Shown here one piece after another: positions 2,324-32,912 of a stretch of DNA of 64,000 nucleotides. Source of the stretch: Herbidospora yilanensis (lineage in GTDB: Bacteria > Actinomycetota > Actinomycetes > Streptosporangiales > Streptosporangiaceae). A program made the translations under genes and the position numbers. The stretch spans positions 172,381-236,380 of the forward strand of contig NZ_BBXE01000015.1 in NCBI RefSeq assembly GCF_001570565.1, in the 5' to 3' direction. The notes beneath the pieces are model-generated. The model did no database searches, was not told the origin of the DNA, and was given only the letters and a program-made list of their open reading frames with translations. Position 1 is the stretch's first letter. Every line of letters begins with the position of its first letter.

Positions 2324-3130
2324 TCAGGGCAGTTCGAACGGCAGCTTGATCCCGTCCAGCGCGTTCCCGCAAGAACAGGCCCGTTCCTCCGGCAACGCCT
2401 GCACCACCTGCCCCACCAGTGACCGCATGCGTTCCACGTTGGCCGCGAAGAAGGCCAGCACCTCTTCATGGGTGACCCCTTCGCCGGTTTCCACCCCCGC
2501 GTCGTGATCGGTCACCAGGGACATCGACGTGTAGCAGAGCGCCAGTTCCCGAGCCAGCACCGACTCGGGGAAGCCCGTCATCCCGACGATCGAGCCCCCC
2601 ATGCCGGCGAACCACTTCGACTCGGCCCGGGTCGAGAACCGAGGGCCCTCGATCACGACGAGGGTGCCGCCGTCGGTCACGTCCCATCCGGATGCGCTCG
2701 CGACGGAGACGGCGGCCGAGCGCCCGTCGGGGCAGTAGGGGTCGGCGAGGGACACGTGGACCGCGCCGCCCGCGTCGTAGAAGGACTGGACGCGGCCGGA
2801 GGTGCGGTCGATGAACTGGTCGGGGACGACCAGCGCGCCGGGGCCGAGTTCGGGGCGGAGGGAGCCGACGGCGTTGGGGGCGAGGACCTGGCGCACGCCG
2901 AGGGAGCGCAGCGCCCACAGGTTGGCGCGGTAGGGGATGCGGTGGGGCGGGAAGCCGTGGTCCCGCCCGTGGCGGGGGATGAAGGCGACGGTGCGGCCGC
3001 CGATGCGCCCGACCGTCACCTTGTCGCTGGGGGGCCCGTAGGGGGTCGCGACATCGATCTCCTCGGCGTCGTCGAGCAGGGAGTAGAACCCTGAACCGCC
3101 GATGACACCGATGTCCACACGATTGACCAT
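2324..3130 (-). CDS. mtnP: S-methyl-5'-thioadenosine phosphorylase
   Basis: Purine nucleoside phosphorylase family 2 enzyme. It splits methylthioadenosine, a by-product of polyamine synthesis and radical chemistry, into adenine and methylthioribose-1-phosphate. Family marks are GGSGFY near the N-terminus (phosphate binding), the RHGRDH segment, the central APNAVGSL stretch, EGPRFSTRAE and the base-binding VTDHDAG. The 268-residue length is normal. Start ATG. It sits 78 bases after fmdB on the same strand, an arrangement shared by many actinomycetes. Confidence 0.95.
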   Translation of the reverse strand: MVNRVDIGVIGGSGFYSLLDDAEEIDVATPYGPPSDKVTVGRIGGRTVAFIPRHGRDHGFPPHRIPYRANLWALRSLGVRQVLAPNAVGSLRPELGPGALVVPDQFIDRTSGRVQSFYDAGGAVHVSLADPYCPDGRSAAVSVASASGWDVTDGGTLVVIEGPRFSTRAESKWFAGMGGSIVGMTGFPESVLARELALCYTSMSLVTDHDAGVETGEGVTHEEVLAFFAANVERMRSLVGQVVQALPEERACSCGNALDGIKLPFELP

Positions 3131-3208
3131 GGCGCCGACACTAGCGCCCTGGGCCCCACCCGGTGAGGCCCCATACGCCTTCCTGTGGACAACCCGCTTC
3201 GTCGCAGG

Positions 3209-3508
3209 TCAGGCCGCTGGAGTGCTCGCGGGGGCGGGGCTCGCGGGGGTGCTCGGGGTGCTCGTCTCGGCCGGCTTGCTCTCGGTGGCCGGCTTTGACG
3301 GCGACGACGAGGTCGTGGACGACGACGTCGACGAGCGGTTGTCGGTCCGGTAGAAGCCGGAGCCCTTGAACACGATGCCCACCGCGTTGAAGACCTTGCG
3401 GAGGCGGCCCTGGCACGCGGGGCACTCGGTCAGGGCGTCGTCGGTGAACTTCTGGACGACTTCGAGCTGCTCACCACAATTGGTGCAGGCGTACTGGTAG
3501 GTGGGCAC
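3209..3508 (-). CDS. FmdB family zinc-ribbon protein
   Basis: A 99-residue protein beginning with the FmdB zinc ribbon: MPTYQYAC, CxxC at Cys8/Cys11, then a second CxxC near residue 30 (CPAC). The tail is low complexity, rich in Ser, Thr, Pro and Ala. The function of the family is not established; a regulatory role was proposed from fmdB of methylotrophs. Start is GTG with a strong GAGGAGGA site; the open frame upstream contains no family sequence. The leader carries an imperfect inverted repeat (3521-3530 and 3539-3548, 9 of 10 matching), a possible operator. fmdB beside the cyclo-ligase and galU is also the gene order in mycobacteria. Confidence 0.9.
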   Translation of the reverse strand: MPTYQYACTNCGEQLEVVQKFTDDALTECPACQGRLRKVFNAVGIVFKGSGFYRTDNRSSTSSSTTSSSPSKPATESKPAETSTPSTPASPAPASTPAA

Positions 3509-3596
3509 GCGGTCCTCCTCAGTGACTTGGCACTCGACCCAAGTGACTGCTAAATGATAAGGCAATCGGCAAGCTGCAACGTTGCCGCAGGGGAGT

Positions 3597-5105
3597 TTAG
3601 TCCCCTCTCTCCCCATACCAGCCTGCGAGTTTGCCTCTGCGAGAGACCGCGCGCAGGCGCTTTTCGACGGTTCGGCGCTGGGCGGCCGTCGTCACGACGA
3701 GCAGTTGGTCGTCGCGGCGCAGGCGGGTGCTGCCGTCGGGGACGAACGAGTGGCCGTCTCTGACGACCATGGTGACCGCGGCGTCCGACGGCAGGCGGAG
3801 CTCGAAGACCTCGACGCCGTGCAGCCTCGACTCGGCCGGGATCCGCACCTGGAGCAGGTCGGCGTTCAGCTCCTCCAGGGGGGCGGCCTCCACGTCGAGG
3901 TCGCGGGCCTCGCCCTCGTTCGACAGGCGCAGCACGCGGGCCAGGAACGGCAGGGTGGGGCCCTGGAGCAGGGTGAAGACCACCACGATGACGAAGACCT
4001 CGTTGAACAGCGCCTTCGCCCCGGGGACCCCGGCCGCCCATGGGATGGTGGCCAGGACGATGGGCACCGCGCCGCGCAGCCCGGCCCATGACAGGAAGAC
4101 CTGTTCTCGCCAGCTGACCCGGTCGACGCGGGTCACCCGTACCGCCAGGGACGACAGGACGACCGAGATCGGGCGGGCCAGGAGCACCAGCGCCAGGCCG
4201 GCGACCAGGCCGGGGATGATCTGGCCGGGCAACTCGCCGGGGCTGACGAGGAGGCCGAGGATGACGAACAGGCCGATCTGGGCCAGCCAGGCCGCCCCTT
4301 CGGCGAACCCTCTCGTCGCGGCCCGGTGGGGGAGCCGGCTGTTGCCGATGATGAGCGCGGCCAGATACACCGCGAGGAAGCCGGAGGCGTGGAGCAGGAC
4401 CGCGCCGCTGTAGGCGATGAACGACACCGCCAGGACCGCGATCGGATAGAGGCCCGAGGCGGGCAGCGCGACCCGGCGCAGCGCGTAGGCGGAGATCGGG
4501 CCCACGGCGCAGCCGACCGCCGCGCCCGCGGCCAGTTCCCACAGGGCGGTGCCCAGAACGTTCCACGCCGACGGCATGGGCGCGCTGACCTGGCTCAGCA
4601 TCACGACGACGATCACCGTGGGGGCGTCGTTGAAGCCCGACTCGGCCTCCAGGGTGCCGGCCAGGCGGGGCGGCAGCGGGAGCCGGCGCAGCACGCTGAA
4701 GACCGCCGCGGCGTCGGTCGAGGCGAGGATCGCGCCCAGCAGCATGGCGGTGCGCCAGTCCATGCCGAGGAAGCCGAACACGGCCAGGGCCAGCACGATG
4801 ATGCTGACCGCGACGCCGAACGTCGCCAGGACCAGCGCGGTCGGCACGGCCGTGCGCACGTGTTCCCAGTTGGTGGTCAGGCCGCCTTCGGCCAGAATGA
4901 TCGCCAGCGCGATCATGCCGATCTGCTTGGCCAGCCCGGCGTCCTCGAAGTGGATGCCCAGGCCCGACTCGCCGAGGGCGACGCCCAGAGCGAGGTAGAG
5001 GAGCAGTGACGGCAGACCGGTGCGGTGCGCGATTCTGACCGATACCACGGCCGCGAGGACGATCACGGCGGACAGGAGGAGCCATCCGTCGATGTCCAGG
5101 CGCAC
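3597..5105 (-). CDS. Potassium/proton antiporter (CPA1, NhaP2/CvrA-like) with C-terminal TrkA-C domain
   Basis: A 502-residue membrane protein. Residues about 5-385 form the 12-13-helix Na+/H+ exchanger fold, with the conserved acidic pair region in ASTDAAAVFSVL and ESGFNDAPTVIVV. Residues about 400-490 form a cytosolic TrkA-C (RCK-C) ligand-binding domain, the usual NhaP2 arrangement. This suggests K+(Na+)/H+ exchange gated by a nucleotide such as c-di-AMP, but the ligand is inference. Start GTG is preceded by AAGGGGA. It is 18 bases after the cyclo-ligase gene and probably co-transcribed. A small hairpin, AGGGGA(N6)TCCCCT at 3589-3606, spans its stop codon. Confidence 0.9.
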   Translation of the reverse strand: MRLDIDGWLLLSAVIVLAAVVSVRIAHRTGLPSLLLYLALGVALGESGLGIHFEDAGLAKQIGMIALAIILAEGGLTTNWEHVRTAVPTALVLATFGVAVSIIVLALAVFGFLGMDWRTAMLLGAILASTDAAAVFSVLRRLPLPPRLAGTLEAESGFNDAPTVIVVVMLSQVSAPMPSAWNVLGTALWELAAGAAVGCAVGPISAYALRRVALPASGLYPIAVLAVSFIAYSGAVLLHASGFLAVYLAALIIGNSRLPHRAATRGFAEGAAWLAQIGLFVILGLLVSPGELPGQIIPGLVAGLALVLLARPISVVLSSLAVRVTRVDRVSWREQVFLSWAGLRGAVPIVLATIPWAAGVPGAKALFNEVFVIVVVFTLLQGPTLPFLARVLRLSNEGEARDLDVEAAPLEELNADLLQVRIPAESRLHGVEVFELRLPSDAAVTMVVRDGHSFVPDGSTRLRRDDQLLVVTTAAQRRTVEKRLRAVSRRGKLAGWYGERGD

Positions 5106-24725: not shown

Positions 24726-26507
24726 ATGTCTCAGCACATCTTGACCGCCGTCGCGTGGCCCTATGCCAACGGGCCACGCCACATCGGGCACGTCTCCGGG
24801 TTCGGCGTGCCGTCCGACGTCTTCAGCCGCTACCAGCGGATGGCGGGCAACAAGGTGCTGATGGTCTCCGGCACCGACGAGCACGGCACGCCGATCCAGG
24901 TGCAGGCCGACAAGGAGGGCCTCTCGGCCCGGGAGCTCGCCGACCGCTACAACCGGATCATCGCCGAAGACCTGACGGCCCTCGGCCTCTCCTACGACCT
25001 GTTCACCCGCACGACCACGCTCAACCACTACGCCGTCGCCCAGGAGATCTTCCTCGGGCTGCACAAGAACGGCTACATCTTCCCGAAGACCACGATGGGT
25101 GCGATCTCCCCGTCCACCGGGCGCACCCTCCCCGACCGCTACATCGAGGGCACCTGCCCGATCTGCGGTTACGACGGCGCGCGTGGCGACCAGTGTGACA
25201 ACTGCGGCAACCAGCTCGACCCGATCGACCTGATCAACCCGAAGTCGAAGATCAACGGCGAGACGCCGAAGTTCATCGAGACCGAACACTTCATGCTCGA
25301 CCTGCCCGCCTTCGCCGACGCGCTCGGCACCTGGTTGCAGGGCAAGCAGGGCGAGTGGCGGCCCAACGTGCTGAAGTTCTCGCTCAACCTGCTGGGCGAC
25401 CTGCAGCCGCGCGCGATCAGCCGTGACCTCGACTGGGGGGTGCCGATCCCGCTCGACGGCTGGAGCGACCGCAACGACAAGCGCCTCTACGTCTGGTTCG
25501 ACGCGGTCATCGGCTATCTGAGCGCCTCGGTCGAGTGGGCCCGCCGGTCGGGCGACCCCGACGCGTGGCGGGCGTGGTGGCAGAACCCCGACGCCCGGGG
25601 TTACTACTTCATGGGCAAGGACAACATCGTCTTCCACTCCGAGATCTGGCCGGCGATGCTGCTCGGCTACAACGGAGAGGGCGCCCGGGGTGGTGCGGCC
25701 GGGTCGCTGGGGCGGCTCGACCTGCCCTCCGAGGTGGTGTCGAGCGAGTTCCTGACCATGGAGGGGCGCAAGTTCTCCTCCTCGCGGTCGGTCGTGATCT
25801 ACGTCCGCGACTTCCTGGAGCGCTATTCGGCCGACGCGCTGCGCTACTACATCGCGGTGGCCGGGCCCGAGAACCAGGACACCGACTTCACCTGGTCGGA
25901 GTTCCTCAACCGCAACAACGGCGAGCTCGTCGCGGCCTGGGGCAACCTGGTCAACCGGTCGATCTCGATGGCGTCCAAGAACTTCGGCAAGATCCCCGAC
26001 GCGGTCGACCTGACCGACGCCGACCGGGCGCTGCTCCAGCGGTCGAAGGCGGCCTTCCCGGCGGTCGGGGCCGAACTCGGGCGGTCGCGGTTCAAGAACG
26101 CGGTCACCGAGGCGTTCGACGTGGTGCGCGACGCCAACCGCTACCTGGCCGAGCAGGAGCCCTGGAAGATCAAGGACGACCCGGTGCGCCAGGGCAGCAT
26201 CCTCCACGTGGCGCTCCAGGTCGTCGACGACGCGAAGACGCTGCTCACCCCGTTCCTGCCGAACTCCTCCAACAAGATCCACGAGATGCTCGGCGGCCAG
26301 GGCGTCTGGTCCGGCATGCCGGAGATCCGCGAGGTCGACGAGCCGGGCGGGCGCTCCTACCCGGTCATCACCGGCTCCTATGAGGGCGCGGCGCAGTGGG
26401 AGCACCGGCCGATCCAGTCGGGGACCCCGCTGGCCCCGCCGAAGCCGCTGTTCGCCAAGCTCGACGCGAAGATCGTCGACGAAGAACTGGCCAGACTGGA
26501 AAGCTGA
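24726..26507 (+). CDS. metG: Methionyl-tRNA synthetase
   Basis: Class I aminoacyl-tRNA synthetase charging initiator and elongator tRNA-Met. HIGH signature at residues 19-22; zinc knuckle [18 protein letters not shown] at about 144-161; KMSKS-equivalent loop KFSSS at 349-353; then the anticodon-binding helical domain. 593 residues, without the C-terminal tRNA-binding (EMAP-like) extension, as usual in actinobacteria. Its stop overlaps the tatD start by one base, so the two are co-transcribed. Confidence 0.97.
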
Positions 26508-27355
26508 TGTCCGTCCCGCTCCCCGAGGCGCTCGGCGCCGAGGTGTTCGACAGCCACTGCCACCTCGACATCATGGTCGGGGAGCGCAAGGCGTCGTCAG
26601 GCGACCCCGTCGCCCTGGCCGCGCAGGCGGCCGGGGCGAGCGTCGACCGCATCGTCGACGAGGCCAGGTCCGTCGGGGTGACGCGCCTGGTGACGATCGG
26701 CTACGACCTGCGCTCCTCCGAGTGGGGCGCCGAGATCGCCCGCGACCACGAGGGCGTCTACGCGGGTGTGGCGATCCACCCCAACGAGGCCCACGCGGCG
26801 ACTCCGGAGGTGCTCGACCGCATCGAGGAACTGGCCCGGCTTCCGCACGTGCGGGCGGTCGGCGAGACCGGCCTCGACTTCTTCCGCGACTGGGCGTCCA
26901 AGGACGACCAGCACGCCTCGTTCCGGGCGCACATCGAGATCGCCAAGCGCACCGGGAAGGTGCTGGTGATCCACGACCGCGACGCCCACGACGCGGTCCT
27001 CGACGTGCTCGACGAGGTGGGCGCCCCCGACGTGGTGGTCTTCCACAGCTATTCGGGCGACGCCGAGATGGCCGAGCGCTGCGTCAAGGCGGGCTACTAC
27101 CTGTCGTTCTCGGGCCCGGTCACCTACAAGAACGCCGCCTACCTGCGCGAGGCCGCGAAGGTCGCGCCGGCGGAGCTGATCCTGGTCGAGACCGACGCGC
27201 CCTATCTGCCGCCGACGCCCCACCGGGGCAAGCCCAACGCGCCCTACCTGATCCCGCTGACGCTGCGCTGCCTCGCGGAGGTGAAGGACACGGCACCCGA
27301 GGCGCTCGCGGAGATCATTAACGCGAACGGTCCGCGCGTTTTCGGTGATTGGTAA
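26507..27355 (+). CDS. tatD: TatD-family metal-dependent hydrolase (DNase)
   Basis: 282-residue TIM-barrel amidohydrolase-type 3'-5' DNase. Metal ligands are visible in FDSHCHLD (near residue 17-19), GETGLDFFRD (Glu about 124), VIHDRDAHD, VVFHSYSGD and VETDAPYLPP (Asp about 230). ATG overlaps the metG stop (TGATG). The order metG-tatD-rpf-rsmA-ispE is conserved in actinobacteria. Confidence 0.95.
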   Translation: MSVPLPEALGAEVFDSHCHLDIMVGERKASSGDPVALAAQAAGASVDRIVDEARSVGVTRLVTIGYDLRSSEWGAEIARDHEGVYAGVAIHPNEAHAATPEVLDRIEELARLPHVRAVGETGLDFFRDWASKDDQHASFRAHIEIAKRTGKVLVIHDRDAHDAVLDVLDEVGAPDVVVFHSYSGDAEMAERCVKAGYYLSFSGPVTYKNAAYLREAAKVAPAELILVETDAPYLPPTPHRGKPNAPYLIPLTLRCLAEVKDTAPEALAEIINANGPRVFGDW

Positions 27356-27410
27356 TGCGGTGTCACGGTACGGTGTGAGTTGACCATGGCGCTTCCGGAA
27401 GGACGCATCC

Positions 27411-28376
27411 GTGTATTCCCCGACGTTGGAGAGCCCCGCGCGCGACACGGGCAGCCAACTGTCGGGCTGGGAACACCCGGTCGAGAAACCCGCTGAGACG
27501 CCGTCCCGGTTGAGGGCGCTGGTCCGTCCGTGGCTGGCCGTGTTGTGCGCCGCCGCGCTGGGGGTGTCGGTCGGGGTGGTCATCGGGGTCGGGCTGGCCC
27601 GCGAGATCACCCTCGACGTCGACGGCAAGCTGACCACCCACCGTTCGTTCGCGGCCGACGTGCGCGGCGCGTTGAAGGCCGCGGGGGTGCCCTACGAGAC
27701 GGGCGACATGGTCTCGCCCCCGCCGTCGGCCGAGATCGGCGACGACATGACGATCGTGGTCAGGCACGCCCGCCCGCTGACGCTGAACCTCGACGGGACC
27801 TCCAGCACCCATCTGACCACGGCGCTCAACGTCCAGGACGCTCTCCTAGAGCTCAAGATGAACCCCAACAAGCTGCAGCTCTCGACGACCCGGCTGCGGC
27901 AGATCCCGGTCGAGGGGTTCGAGCTCGACGCGCGCTCCCAGCGCAAGGTGACGATCGTGGCCGGCAGCATGCGCATCGAGACCACGACGATCGGCCGGAC
28001 GGTCGAAGAGGTGCTGAAGGAGTCGAACATCGAACTCGGCGAGGGCGACAAGGTGTCGCCCGGCCTGTCGACGTTCCCGCCGGAGGACACGGTGATCCGG
28101 GTGACCCCCGGCCTGCCGCCCCACACGATCCCGATCTCGGCCGACGTGGCCGCGCTGAACTGGGACGCGCTGGCGCGATGCGTGTCGGGGAACGACGCCA
28201 AGTCGGCGCCGGGAGGGCTCTACGGGTTCGGGCTGAAGATGTGGCGCGCGGTCGGCGGCGAGAAGCGGCCGGTCGACTGGCCGGAGGCCGAGCAGACCTA
28301 CCGGGCGCAGCTCCTCTACCAGCGGCTGGCGGGCGACTGGAAACGCGCCTGGCCGGACTGCGGCGACCGCCTCTGA
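27411..28376 (+). CDS. Rpf-like membrane-anchored protein with DUF348 repeats; catalytic Glu replaced
   Basis: 321 residues at the position of rpfB. One membrane helix (about 38-63) anchors three ubiquitin-like DUF348 repeats (about 64-120, 121-177, 178-235). The C-terminus (about 249-321) is an Rpf/lysozyme-like domain: NWDALARCVSGN, then LYGFGLKMWRAVGG and AWPDC. Active Rpf domains have CESG here, the Glu being the catalytic acid; this protein has Val258 (codon GTG at 28182-28184, one base from GAG). The G5 domain of mycobacterial RpfB is absent. It probably binds glycan or a partner (RpfB pairs with RipA) without cutting. GTG start with GGAAGGA 7 bases upstream. Confidence 0.87.
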   Translation: MYSPTLESPARDTGSQLSGWEHPVEKPAETPSRLRALVRPWLAVLCAAALGVSVGVVIGVGLAREITLDVDGKLTTHRSFAADVRGALKAAGVPYETGDMVSPPPSAEIGDDMTIVVRHARPLTLNLDGTSSTHLTTALNVQDALLELKMNPNKLQLSTTRLRQIPVEGFELDARSQRKVTIVAGSMRIETTTIGRTVEEVLKESNIELGEGDKVSPGLSTFPPEDTVIRVTPGLPPHTIPISADVAALNWDALARCVSGNDAKSAPGGLYGFGLKMWRAVGGEKRPVDWPEAEQTYRAQLLYQRLAGDWKRAWPDCGDRL

Positions 28377-28380
28377 CCGT

Positions 28381-29553
28381 TCAGCCGACGGCATGGCCGT
28401 AGTCGACCGCTCCCGCCGGGGCGGGGGTGGCCGCCGAGGTGTAGACCGCGCCGACGCCGTCGCGGTCGGGCGCGCCGATCAGCAGTCCGGCTGCCCCGTC
28501 GGCCGCCAGTGACCAGCCGTAACGCTGGCCCGGCTGGGGCGGGACCGGCAGCGGGGCCACGGTCCCGTCGACGGTGCTGGTGTGCACGCCCCCCGTCGCT
28601 CCCTTCGTATAGGGGTGGCCCATGGCGAGCCTCCCGTCGCCGGTGAACGCCAGCGACCAGCCGAGGCCCGTCGTGCCGGGCACGGTGATCGCCTTGACGG
28701 GGGCGAGGCCGGCCCAGAGCTGGACCATGCCGGCGTCGCGCGGCCCGGCGAGCGGGGCGCTCGCGGCCAGGTAGGAGGTGCCGCCGATCCGGGTGGCCGC
28801 CAACGTCCAGCCGAAGCGGTTGCCCGCCTCTTCGGGCACCTCCTCGGTGGCCTGGCCGAGGTCCCACTTCCTGGTCGTGTACGGCGCCCCCGACAACACG
28901 TCCTTGACGACGACGACCGTCCCGGCGTCGACGATGCCGCTGGCGACCTGGACCCCCGTGCCGTCGTTGTCCTCGTAGGGCACGCCGACGGCCAGGTCGG
29001 GCCGGGCGGGGTCGCCGTGGAAGGCCAGCGACCAGCCCCACATGTCGCCGACCTCGCCGTTGCCGATCACGCCGTCGGACTCCTGGTTGAGCCGCGTCCG
29101 CCCCCGAGGGGAGAACAGGTGTACCGCCCCGGCGTCGGTCAGCGGGTCGTCGGCGTGGGGTTCGCCGACCGCCAGCACCCAGCCGGCCGGCAGGTCGGCC
29201 GCCGCCAGCGACCAGCCGAAGTGGGCGTCCTTCTGCGGGTCCCGTGCGGTCAGGGTCCGCACGCCGCCCGCTGAGAACACGTAGACCGCGCCCTCGTCGT
29301 CGGCGCCGGCATAGGGGGCGCCCACGACGACGTCGAGGCAGCGGTCGCCGTCGATGTGGGCGGTGGCCACGGCCCAGCCGAAGCCGGTGCCGCTCTCGCC
29401 GCCCGGGGGTCTGAGGGTCTGGCCGCCGAAGGTCACGGTCTCGGCGAAGGGGTCGCCGACGGCGTGGGTCGCGGCGGGGCAGGGGGCGGCGGAGGCCGTA
29501 CCGGAAGGGACGAGCGCCGACCCGAGCAGGAGAGCGGTGAGCAGCCGGGTCAC
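28381..29553 (-). CDS. Secreted FG-GAP/integrin-alpha-like beta-propeller protein
   Basis: 390 residues. Signal peptide about 1-23 (cut after TASA). The rest consists of about six FG-GAP-type blades, each with FGWxxA followed by a V-V-GAPYA or AVGEPHA strand (GFGWAVATAHIDGDRCLDVVVG, quoted only in part here; HFGWSLAAADL; MWGWSLAFHGD; RFGWTLAATRI; GLGWSLAFTGD; RYGWSLAADGA). Such propellers bind ligands or proteins outside the cell. Its GTG start overlaps the kinase stop by 4 bases, so kinase and propeller are made together. The 3' end is 4 bases from the convergent rpf-like gene. Confidence 0.85.
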   Translation of the reverse strand: MTRLLTALLLGSALVPSGTASAAPCPAATHAVGDPFAETVTFGGQTLRPPGGESGTGFGWAVATAHIDGDRCLDVVVGAPYAGADDEGAVYVFSAGGVRTLTARDPQKDAHFGWSLAAADLPAGWVLAVGEPHADDPLTDAGAVHLFSPRGRTRLNQESDGVIGNGEVGDMWGWSLAFHGDPARPDLAVGVPYEDNDGTGVQVASGIVDAGTVVVVKDVLSGAPYTTRKWDLGQATEEVPEEAGNRFGWTLAATRIGGTSYLAASAPLAGPRDAGMVQLWAGLAPVKAITVPGTTGLGWSLAFTGDGRLAMGHPYTKGATGGVHTSTVDGTVAPLPVPPQPGQRYGWSLAADGAAGLLIGAPDRDGVGAVYTSAATPAPAGAVDYGHAVG

Positions 29554-31070
29554 AGAGCCACCTCCAGGCCGCCGCCGAACTGGAGCCGGGCGGGAACGCG
29601 GTCGCCGGGGAGGTCGAACACGAGCCTGCCGTCGGAGCGCCCGCCGGGCCGCAGCCCGCTCGGCAGCGGCGTGGAGAGGCGATGGGCCCGGTAGGCCGTG
29701 CCCGAGGTGTCGAGCAGCACCGGCGTGGCGTTGATCGCGACCAGCTCGCCGCCGGTGTTGACCATGCTCCACGGGATCACGCAGAACGCCCCCTGCGAGG
29801 CCGTGACCCCTTCGTAGTCGGGGAGCCCGCACCGTGGATCCCTGGTGATGACCAGGTCCACCCCGAACCCCGCGCCGACGCTGATCCGCTTGGCGACGTC
29901 GCCGCCGGCGGCCTCCCGCGCGGCGATCTGCACGGCGGTGCGCGGCTCGTTGTCCCCCGACACGACCAGCACCCCGACGCTGACCACGAACGCCACGAAG
30001 ATCACCACGGCCGCGACGAGCCACCGGTCCGAACGCGACCGTGGTGGTCTCATCGGTGGTCCCGTGGAGGTGTCGGGGCCGCTTGAGGCGACCACGGTGA
30101 CCGGTTCGGCGGTGCGGTCGATCCGCTCGCCGGAAGCCGGGATCTCGTCGGCGGGTTCGGGGAGGCTCTGCTGGAGGGTCCGGTTGAGTTCCTCCACCGG
30201 CATCAGCGGCTCGGCCCGCCGGACCTCCGGGTCGCGGGCCGAGACCGCCGGCAGGGCGCCGCCGACCAGGGCGATCAGCAGGTCCTGGGCGGTCGGGCGG
30301 CGGGTCGGGTCGGGGTCGGTCGCCAGGCGGACCAGCTCGTTCAACGGCTCGGGCAGCGCGCCCAGGTCGGGGCGGCCGTTCAGGACGCGGGCCGCCAGGG
30401 TCACCATGTTGCCCTGGCCGTAGGGGTGACGGCCGGTGCCCGCGTAGGCCACCAGGCAGCCCCAGGCGAAGACGTCGGTCCACGGGCTGACCGGCTCGCC
30501 GCGCACCTGTTCCGGCGCCCACCAGCCGGGGCTGCCGAGGAGCTCCCCGGCCTGGGTGAAGTCGTGGGAGGCGTCCAGGGCCCGGGCGATGCCGAAGTCG
30601 ATCACGCGGGGCCCCGACAGGGACAGGATCACGTTGGCCGGTTTCAGGTCGCGGTGCACCAGGCCCGCCACGTGGATGGCCGCCAGCGCCGCCGCCACGC
30701 CCAGGGCCACACCGTGGAGCGGTCCCGGCTCAAGCGGGCCCTCTTGGACGATCTGCCGGTTGAGCGGGGTTCCGGCGATGTACTCGGTCACCATGTAGGG
30801 CCGCCCGTCGGGGGTGTTCCCGTTGTCGAGCACCTGGGCGGTGCAGAACGACGCCACCTTGCGCGCGTTCTCGACCTCGCCGTGGAAGCGGGCCGCGAAG
30901 GCGTCGTCGGCCAGTTGGGAGCGGACCACCTTGAGGGCCACCAGACGGCCGTCGGCCACGGCCAGGTAGACCGTGCCCATGCCGCCCTCGCCCAGGCGGC
31001 CCAGAAGCCGGTAGGTCCCGATCGTGGCGGGATCGTCGGGGCGGAGCGGCTCGGCGCCGGTCGGTTCCAT
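29550..31070 (-). CDS. Transmembrane serine/threonine protein kinase
   Basis: 506 residues. Kinase domain about 18-270: glycine loop [11 protein letters not shown] (27-37), Lys47 in [14 protein letters not shown] (139-146), DFG 158-160 and APEQVRG. A Pro-rich linker leads to one membrane helix (about 349-371). The outer domain (about 378-506) resembles the DUF4352/telomere-repeat-factor-like fold, with Cys402 and Cys421 likely in a disulfide. Pkn-type Hanks kinase sensing an extracellular cue. ATG with GGAGAG upstream. Divergent from rsmA by 121 bp; coupled to the secreted FG-GAP protein, a candidate ligand or target. Confidence 0.93.
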
Positions 31071-31191
31071 CTGGGGGCTCTCCTACGGCCTGTGCAGGTT
31101 CGTGAACACTTCGAAGCGATCGCCAGCATGGATTGCCCGCGGGGGTCGCGAACAGGTAAATCGACGCGTTCGCATGCCCGACACTGGTTGC

Positions 31192-32034
31192 ATGAGTCTG
31201 CTCGGGCCCGTTGAGGTGCGCACGCTTGCGGAGAAGTTGAACATCCGGCCCACCAAGAAGCTCGGGCAGAACTTCGTGATCGACGGCGGCACCGTCCGCA
31301 AGATCGTCAGAGTCGCCGAGGTGTCGCCCGACGACGTGGTCATCGAGGTCGGCCCGGGGCTGGGGTCGCTGACGCTGGCGTTGTTGTCGGAGGTCGCCGA
31401 GGTCGTCGCGGTCGAGATCGATCCGGTGCTGGCGGGACAGCTCCCCGAGACGGTCACGGTCATGCTTCCTGACTACGCCGACCGGCTGAGGGTCGTCCAG
31501 GCCGACGCCTTGCGCATCACTCCGGACGACCTGTCGGCCCGGCCGACCGCGCTGGTCGCCAACCTGCCCTACAACGTGTCGGTCCCGGTTGTCCTGCACC
31601 TGCTGGAGATCCTGCCCGGGCTGCGCCGGGGCCTGGTGATGGTGCAGTCGGAGGTCGCCGACCGGCTGGCCGCCCGGCCCGGCTCCCGGGTCTACGGCGT
31701 GCCGTCGGTCAAGGCCGCCTGGTACGCCGACGTCCGCCGCGCGGGCCCGGTCGGGCGCAACGTCTTCTGGCCGGCCCCCAACGTCGACTCGGGCCTGGTC
31801 TCCCTGGTCCGCCGTGAGCCCCCGGCCACCACCGCCACCAGGAAAGAGGTGTTCGCCGCGATCGACGCCGCGTTCGCCCAGCGGCGCAAGACCCTGCGCG
31901 CCGCCCTGGCGGGCTGGGCGGGCTCCCCGGCGCTGGCCGAGGAGGCGCTCGTGAAGGCGGGCGTCGACCCGCAGGCCCGGGGCGAGCAGCTCGACGTGGC
32001 CGACTTCGCCCGAATCGCCGAACACCGCCGCTAG
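31192..32034 (+). CDS. rsmA: 16S rRNA (adenine-1518/1519-N6)-dimethyltransferase
   Basis: KsgA/RsmA dimethylates two adenosines in the 3' hairpin of 16S rRNA. Signature [10 protein letters not shown] near residue 22, SAM loop [10 protein letters not shown] and the catalytic NLPYNVS, then [11 protein letters not shown] and [12 protein letters not shown]. 280 residues. I chose ATG at 31192; an in-frame ATG at 31174 would add 6 residues. No Shine-Dalgarno is clear, so it may be leaderless. Conserved with rpf, ispE and tatD. Confidence 0.96.
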
Positions 32035-32045: not shown

Positions 32046-32912
32046 GTGATTACCGTGCGTGTGCCCGCCAAGGTCAATCTTCAGCTCTCCGTCGGCCCGC
32101 TGCGCGACGACGGCTTCCACGACCTCGTCAACGTCTTCCAGGCCGTCTCCCTGTTCGACGAGGTCACCGCGGCGGAGTCAGACCGGGTCGAGGTCGTCTG
32201 CGACCACGCCGACGTGCCGCTCGGGGCCGACAACCTGGCCGTCCGGGCCGCCCACGCGCTCGCGCCCGGCAGGGGCGTCCGGCTGGAGATCAAGAAGACC
32301 ATCCCGATCGCGGGCGGCATGGCCGGGGGCAGCGCCGACGCCGCCGCCGCGCTCGTCGCGTGCAACGCCCTCTGGAAGCTCGGCAGGACGCGTGAGGAAC
32401 TGATGGAGATCGGCGGCACGCTCGGCAGCGACGTGCCGTTCGCGCTGCTCGGCGGCACCGCCGTCGGCGTCGGCAAGGGCGAGGTCCTGACGCCGATGGA
32501 GACTTCGGGCACCTTCCACTGGGTGTTCGCGCTGGCCGACGGCGGGCTGTCGACGCCGCAGGTCTACGGCGAGTGCGACCGCATCAGGGAGGCCACCGGC
32601 GAGCAGGCCGCCTGGCCGATTTTGAGCGACCCGCTGACCAGGGCGCTGGCCGACGGCGACGCCGCGGCCCTCGGGGCCGCGCTCGTCAACGACCTCCAGC
32701 CCGCCGCCATCATGTTGCGCCGCTCCCTCCACCGCACCCTCGACGAGGGCCGCGAGCTGGGCGCGCTCGGCGCGCTCGTGTCGGGGTCCGGGCCGACGTG
32801 CGCGTTCCTGGCCGCCGACGAGATGCACGCGCGGGAACTCGCCGTCGCGCTCACCAGTTGCCGCCAGGCCGTCATCGCCTCCGGACCGGTGCCGGGAGCC
32901 GCGATCGTCTAG
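32046..32912 (+). CDS. ispE: 4-diphosphocytidyl-2-C-methyl-D-erythritol kinase
   Basis: GHMP kinase of the MEP pathway for isoprenoid precursors. N-terminal VRVPAKVNLQLSVG (substrate binding), ATP loop PIAGGMAGGSADAAAAL (about 86-102) and the C-terminal LVSGSGPTCAF motif are all present. 288 residues, normal. GTG start 11 bases after rsmA. The MEP route supplies polyprenyl carriers for the glycan synthesis encoded elsewhere in the window. Confidence 0.96.
   Translation: MITVRVPAKVNLQLSVGPLRDDGFHDLVNVFQAVSLFDEVTAAESDRVEVVCDHADVPLGADNLAVRAAHALAPGRGVRLEIKKTIPIAGGMAGGSADAAAALVACNALWKLGRTREELMEIGGTLGSDVPFALLGGTAVGVGKGEVLTPMETSGTFHWVFALADGGLSTPQVYGECDRIREATGEQAAWPILSDPLTRALADGDAAALGAALVNDLQPAAIMLRRSLHRTLDEGRELGALGALVSGSGPTCAFLAADEMHARELAVALTSCRQAVIASGPVPGAAIV

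Follow-up and report, generated by a model that had tools for sequence, protein, structure and literature searches.

RpfB (resuscitation-promoting factor B) of M. tuberculosis and its relatives, a member of the cell-wall-cutting Rpf family, combines DUF348 repeats with a C-terminal Rpf domain and is encoded downstream of tatD in a tatD–rsmA (ksgA) neighbourhood. The protein of Herbidospora yilanensis described here has the same domains and is likewise encoded downstream of tatD. GST-RpfB alone shows minimal activity and acts in synergy with RipA, with which RpfB interacts (PMC2262848). The activity of Rpf2 is supported by its DUF348 repeats. Replacement of the catalytic glutamate of the M. luteus protein (E54A, E54K) essentially suppressed activity, as far as that work is cited in PMC6534110, and in Micrococcus KBS0714 the E54A replacement abolished resuscitation (PMC12090717). 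The question of whether Rpf proteins cut, or instead bind or signal, has thus far been argued mainly from such point mutants, and the soil actinomycetes considered here offer natural experiments, in which sister species, each carrying a single Rpf gene, differ in whether the catalytic residue is present.

The rpf Locus of Herbidospora yilanensis

Herbidospora is a genus of soil bacteria. The window (the whole stretch of 64,000 nucleotides that was analysed, from contig NZ_BBXE01000015.1) contains the following features of the rpf locus:

26507..27355, plus strand: tatD, directly 5' of rpf (Pfam TatD_DNase, 243.8 bits)
27397..27403, plus strand: GGAAGGA, Shine-Dalgarno-like and likely the rpf ribosome binding site, 7 nt 5' of the GTG start (read from the sequence)
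27411..28376, plus strand: rpf gene of the RpfB lineage, 321 aa from a GTG start (ORF list, translation, Pfam DUF348 and PF06737)
27528..27590, plus strand: predicted membrane or signal-anchor helix, residues 40–60 (low-confidence AlphaFold2 helix H40–60 and hydrophobic sequence)
27597..28118, plus strand: three DUF348 (ubiquitin-like) repeats, residues 63–236 (Pfam, three stretches)
28155..28373, plus strand: Rpf domain lacking the glutamate, residues 249–321 (PF06737, 31.8 bits; model match to RpfC/RpfE)
28179..28181, plus strand: Cys257, disulphide cysteine, retained (invariant in aligned orthologues)
28182..28184, plus strand: GTG, Val258 at the catalytic Glu position (sequence, PDB-chain alignment, relatives)
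28224..28226, plus strand: Gly272 at the conserved Gln of YYG(L/M)YQF, the second active-site residue (alignment columns)
28359..28361, plus strand: Cys317, second disulphide cysteine, retained (invariant in aligned orthologues)
28381..29544, minus strand: FG-GAP repeat protein gene, between rpf and rsmA (Pfam)
29550..31070, minus strand: Ser/Thr protein kinase gene, between rpf and rsmA (Pfam Pkinase, 126.9 bits)
31174..32034, plus strand: rsmA (ksgA) (Pfam RrnaAD)
32046..32912, plus strand: ispE (Pfam GHMP kinase domains)

The protein has a short N-terminus followed by the predicted helix, the three DUF348 repeats typical of the RpfB subfamily and the C-terminal Rpf domain. With DUF348 at 96.2 bits and the Rpf domain (Transglycosylas, PF06737) at 31.8 bits against a cut-off of 27, Pfam confirmed the claim of the first-pass annotation that both parts are kept, and the disulphide pair C257 and C317 is present and invariant across the aligned orthologues. 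No match to G5, a domain of the RpfB subfamily, was found by Pfam. Positions 28179–28187 read TGC GTG TCG, GTG being residue 258 directly after Cys257, and in alignments with the PDB chains of M. tuberculosis RpfE, RpfC and RpfB it is Val258 that pairs with the Glu of the CES/CEA motif. The catalytic Glu in the CE(S/A/T) motif of the PF06737 family is therefore absent, and the reported change from CESG to CVSG at the catalytic site is borne out by codon and alignment alike.

The gene order is metG–tatD–rpf–(FG-GAP gene, Ser/Thr kinase gene, both on the minus strand)–rsmA–ispE. It had been proposed that rpf occupies the exact rpfB position (tatD–rpf–rsmA–ispE); it does adjoin tatD, but two minus-strand genes separate it from rsmA. 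A similar gap of about 3–4 kb occurs at most Nonomuraea and Acrocarpospora loci and is absent in Actinomadura or Blastococcus. No Rfam match to an RNA element or riboswitch was found in the rpf neighbourhood.

Profile searches of the H. yilanensis genome with PF06737 and with DUF348 each returned this single locus, and no other Rpf gene, including the active RpfA-type paralogue for which a search had been suggested, was found with either profile. Two SLT-domain matches also occur in this genome and are not Rpf. NlpC/P60 matches number ten.

An AlphaFold2 model built with an alignment of 55 orthologues had a pLDDT above 90 for the DUF348 part and about 90 for the Rpf part, and the RpfB structure 5e27 was the top PDB match by both sequence and fold. 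The Rpf part matched the RpfC/RpfE structures with a TM of 0.79 on the target and an rmsd of 2.1–2.2, and a lysozyme-like Rpf fold is thus predicted. The model may lean to the fold of Glu-bearing relatives, as many such sequences stand in the alignment; a single-sequence AlphaFold2 run on the Rpf domain alone (pLDDT 53) was uninformative.

Origin of Val258 within Herbidospora

The nearest named genomes, by best-segment identity, are those of H. solisilvae (97%), H. sakaeratensis (92%), H. galbida (92%), H. daliensis (91%), H. cretacea (84%) and H. mongoliensis (83%). An alignment of orthologues had been suggested to see whether Val is conserved, and it divides the genus: Val (GTG) is found in H. 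yilanensis, H. solisilvae, H. sakaeratensis and H. daliensis, whereas H. galbida, H. cretacea and H. mongoliensis have Glu (GAG). Glu (GAG/GAA) is also present in all Acrocarpospora and Sphaerisporangium examined. In a DNA tree of metG, tatD and rpf, in which the Val site was left unmasked as one codon among 3668 columns, the four Val species form one clade (support 90/95) and one change is needed. The same arrangement was obtained, with weak support (55), in a protein tree of metG, tatD and rsmA, and the derived residues GLYGFGLK are also common to the Val-clade proteins. As three other species keep Glu and the four with Val form one clade, the change from Glu to Val arose inside Herbidospora, most likely as a single event in the common ancestor of those four.

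Recurrent Loss of the Catalytic Glutamate

Exactly one PF06737 gene was found in 43 of 55 Nonomuraea genomes and no match in the remaining 12. Glu is present in 31 of these 43 genes (one Glu-bearing duplicate, L039 being the same as L206, is left out of this count) and is replaced in 12, by V (4), M (3), A (2), L (2) or Q (1). On a DNA tree with the Glu site masked, the minimum number of changes is six, and every Nonomuraea genome with a Glu-less Rpf has one Rpf gene. Outside the family, Glu is kept in every one of 89 Rpf domains drawn from other families of the class (21 of these motifs, unparsed or misparsed by regex, were read by eye, all as Glu). The comparison of Glu-less proteins, 16/50 vs 0/89, gives a Fisher p of 1e-8 on counts that share ancestry and are hence not independent, so that seven events is the safer number. 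The PF06737 profile can miss very divergent Glu-less domains, and in one search it missed H. daliensis. That the cell's only Rpf was converted independently at least seven times in the Streptosporangiaceae into a conserved non-cutting protein is a real, if tentative, possibility. No published report of a naturally Glu-less Rpf was found among the open-access papers searched.

A number of unusual Rpf genes were also observed in the family. In a genome of another genus (G022; L046/L172), a short, divergent Rpf-domain protein with no recognisable DUF348 is encoded directly after tatD and reads CTSD, with Thr (ACC) at the catalytic position. In Nonomuraea wenchangensis (L138, ~3038–4327; L216), an Rpf domain with Val (GTG) stands in frame behind unrelated sequence resembling, by eye, the delta subunit of nitrate reductase (NarJ-like), and neither the DUF348 part nor tatD is present upstream; this represents either a rearrangement or an assembly join. 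The rpf frame of Nonomuraea candida (L104) and that of L198 stay open for several hundred codons beyond the Rpf domain. Three Rpf domains of 116–122 bits (L009, L010, L011), unlike the rest of the family, come from small contigs in incomplete genomes of the family and are possibly contamination.

Second Active-Site Residue, Loop, and G5 Domain

In R. erythropolis Rpf-1 the residue reported to matter most is a Gln, the Q69K mutant having lost 86% of activity (PMC6534110). Q69 was matched to the Gln column of YYG(L/M)YQF by motif, not by alignment. This column holds Q in 28 of the 31 Glu-bearing Nonomuraea and R in Glu-bearing Herbidospora. Gly is found there in the Val clade (Gly272) and in a Nonomuraea clade with Met at the Glu site (Met clade), and Gln is kept in the other Glu-less Nonomuraea; two Glu-less clades have therefore lost both residues and the others Glu only.

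The first-pass annotation had treated the absence of G5, the loop alteration and Val as parts of one change. Both features are indeed seen, but they are older than the Val or independent of it. The loop is shortened in all Herbidospora, those with Glu included, and so is not tied to Val; a further six-residue deletion in the loop is found in H. sakaeratensis and H. daliensis. G5 occurs in only 3 of 55 aligned orthologues, which makes its absence a lineage feature unrelated to Val. Given the shortened substrate loop, peptidoglycan binding may be weakened in the Val clade.

Truncation and Loss of rpf in Relatives

In Nonomuraea basaltis (L135, ~3899–4620) the reading frame is disrupted by a frameshift or indel directly ahead of the Rpf domain, and a remnant of that domain, ACEARADPQAYSPERP, is visible in another frame. 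In genome G034 (L075/L161) the DUF348 repeats are kept and the frame closes after TALSWQ, at the very point where an Rpf domain would start. At least seven other genera have rsmA directly after tatD and no rpf, with clean absence observed at L162, L163, L164, L166, L167, L169 and L174, and in several more genera rpf was not found in the 1.5 kb after tatD. Across the family, 70 of 151 genomes have no PF06737 match.

Selection and Conservation after Glutamate Loss

The Rpf domain of the Val clade has accumulated 16 synonymous changes and 7 replacements; without selection, replacements would be expected to make up 73%. The resulting omega is about 0.16 (p = 2.4e-5; 67 codons, four species), obtained by parsimony on the four sequences and assuming a single origin of Val, and indicates constraint; the DUF348 part has an omega of 0.26 in this clade. 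For the Nonomuraea Met clade the Rpf omega is 0.09–0.24. Pairs of Glu-less Nonomuraea range from 0.06 to 0.33, with one exception (L210/L042) at 0.57, indistinguishable from neutral, and Glu-bearing pairs from 0 to 0.33. Glu-bearing Herbidospora, at 0.28–0.39, lie above most Glu-bearing Nonomuraea pairs. A relative-rate test of Glu-less vs Glu-bearing Nonomuraea lineages was not significant (p = 0.10). As omega of the Glu-less pairs tends somewhat above that of the Glu-bearing ones, a mild relaxation of selection on Glu-less Nonomuraea Rpf is possible. Invariant in all 12 Glu-less Nonomuraea proteins are L249, W251, L254, A255, C257, G268, G269, Y271, F273, W278, P287, W290, the EQTYRAQ helix, W310, W314 and C317. 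This invariant core, together with the constraint, speaks against free decay and in favor of a fold retained for a non-catalytic function.

Possible Role of the Glutamate-Less Protein

On balance, and by a narrow measure, the sequence evidence favors an RpfB-lineage orthologue turned pseudoenzyme, in which a non-cutting Rpf domain on a membrane-anchored DUF348 stalk would bind the wall or a partner. A binding-only or regulatory Rpf, as had been suggested earlier, is partly supported and is the reading that agrees best with the sole Rpf found in the genome, the repeated loss, the kept core and the constraint. The N-terminal helix would anchor the protein in the membrane and the DUF348 stalk would reach into the wall. 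The Rpf domain would no longer cut glycan strands and may still bind peptidoglycan and/or a partner hydrolase, for which an RipA-type NlpC/P60 endopeptidase is a guess, and it could then act as a positioning or activating module for another wall hydrolase. The same conversion would have occurred independently at least six times in Nonomuraea. Since the loss recurs in proteins whose Rpf domain is otherwise conserved, the Glu-less proteins probably bind and do not cut. If so, RpfB could fulfil its biological function without cleaving peptidoglycan, through binding to the wall or to a partner hydrolase.

A less likely explanation, though one to be taken seriously, is that the gene is a decaying relic. 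Use of the Rpf domain would have been lost, with Glu among the first residues to go, the gene would be heading to truncation or deletion, and the DUF348 part, or nothing, would still matter. The genes of N. basaltis and G034, broken just before the Rpf domain, speak for such decay, as do the tatD–rsmA junctions lacking rpf and the genomes lacking a PF06737 match (in the family and in 12/55 Nonomuraea); the already degenerate loop and relatively high omega of Glu-bearing Herbidospora point the same way. Against decay stand the purifying selection after Glu loss in the Val clade and also the Met clade, a fold core and cysteines that are invariant in Glu-less proteins, and frames that have stayed intact across several speciations.

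It is improbable that the protein remains an enzyme, cutting peptidoglycan without Glu by means of another acid or a weakened mechanism. This explanation is kept alive by R. erythropolis Rpf-1, in which E51A lost only 11% of muralytic activity and kept 89% (PMC6534110), and E294, a Glu invariant in all members, could serve as the acid. E294 is, however, found equally in Glu-bearing proteins, and no acid is specific to the Glu-less ones. The Gln singled out in the Rpf-1 study is Gly in both the Val and Met clades, and the E54A/K proteins of other Rpf studies were essentially inactive.

A one-base sequencing or assembly error at Val258 is next to inconceivable, for although GTG and GAG are one base apart, the same GTG recurs in three other, separately assembled Herbidospora species, linked to the shared derived GLYGFGLK.

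Comparison with Known Systems

Degenerate LytM proteins of the EnvC type are activators of wall hydrolases, in which a catalytically dead hydrolase fold has been kept as a regulator. It is the idea alone that the Rpf domain of H. yilanensis may share with them by analogy, as fold and partners are unrelated. At the same locus in Firmicutes, YabE/SpsB is a DUF348 protein in which the C-terminal domain differs while the stalk stays (Ravagnani 2005, PMC1084345). Unlike in H. yilanensis, the Sps domain is unrelated and not a Glu-less Rpf, and G5 is present. The H. yilanensis protein differs from RpfB in lacking G5 and the catalytic Glu and in its altered loop, and its locus differs in the two minus-strand genes before rsmA and in a genome in which no other Rpf was found. 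Other close counterparts are the Glu-bearing RpfB-lineage proteins of H. galbida, H. cretacea, H. mongoliensis, Acrocarpospora and Sphaerisporangium, which are direct orthologues at the same locus. The Herbidospora orthologues share 83–93% identity within the genus, the Glu-bearing ones differing by GAG/GAA at the site, and the pair of H. galbida (Glu) and H. yilanensis (Val) makes the question of cutting or binding directly testable.
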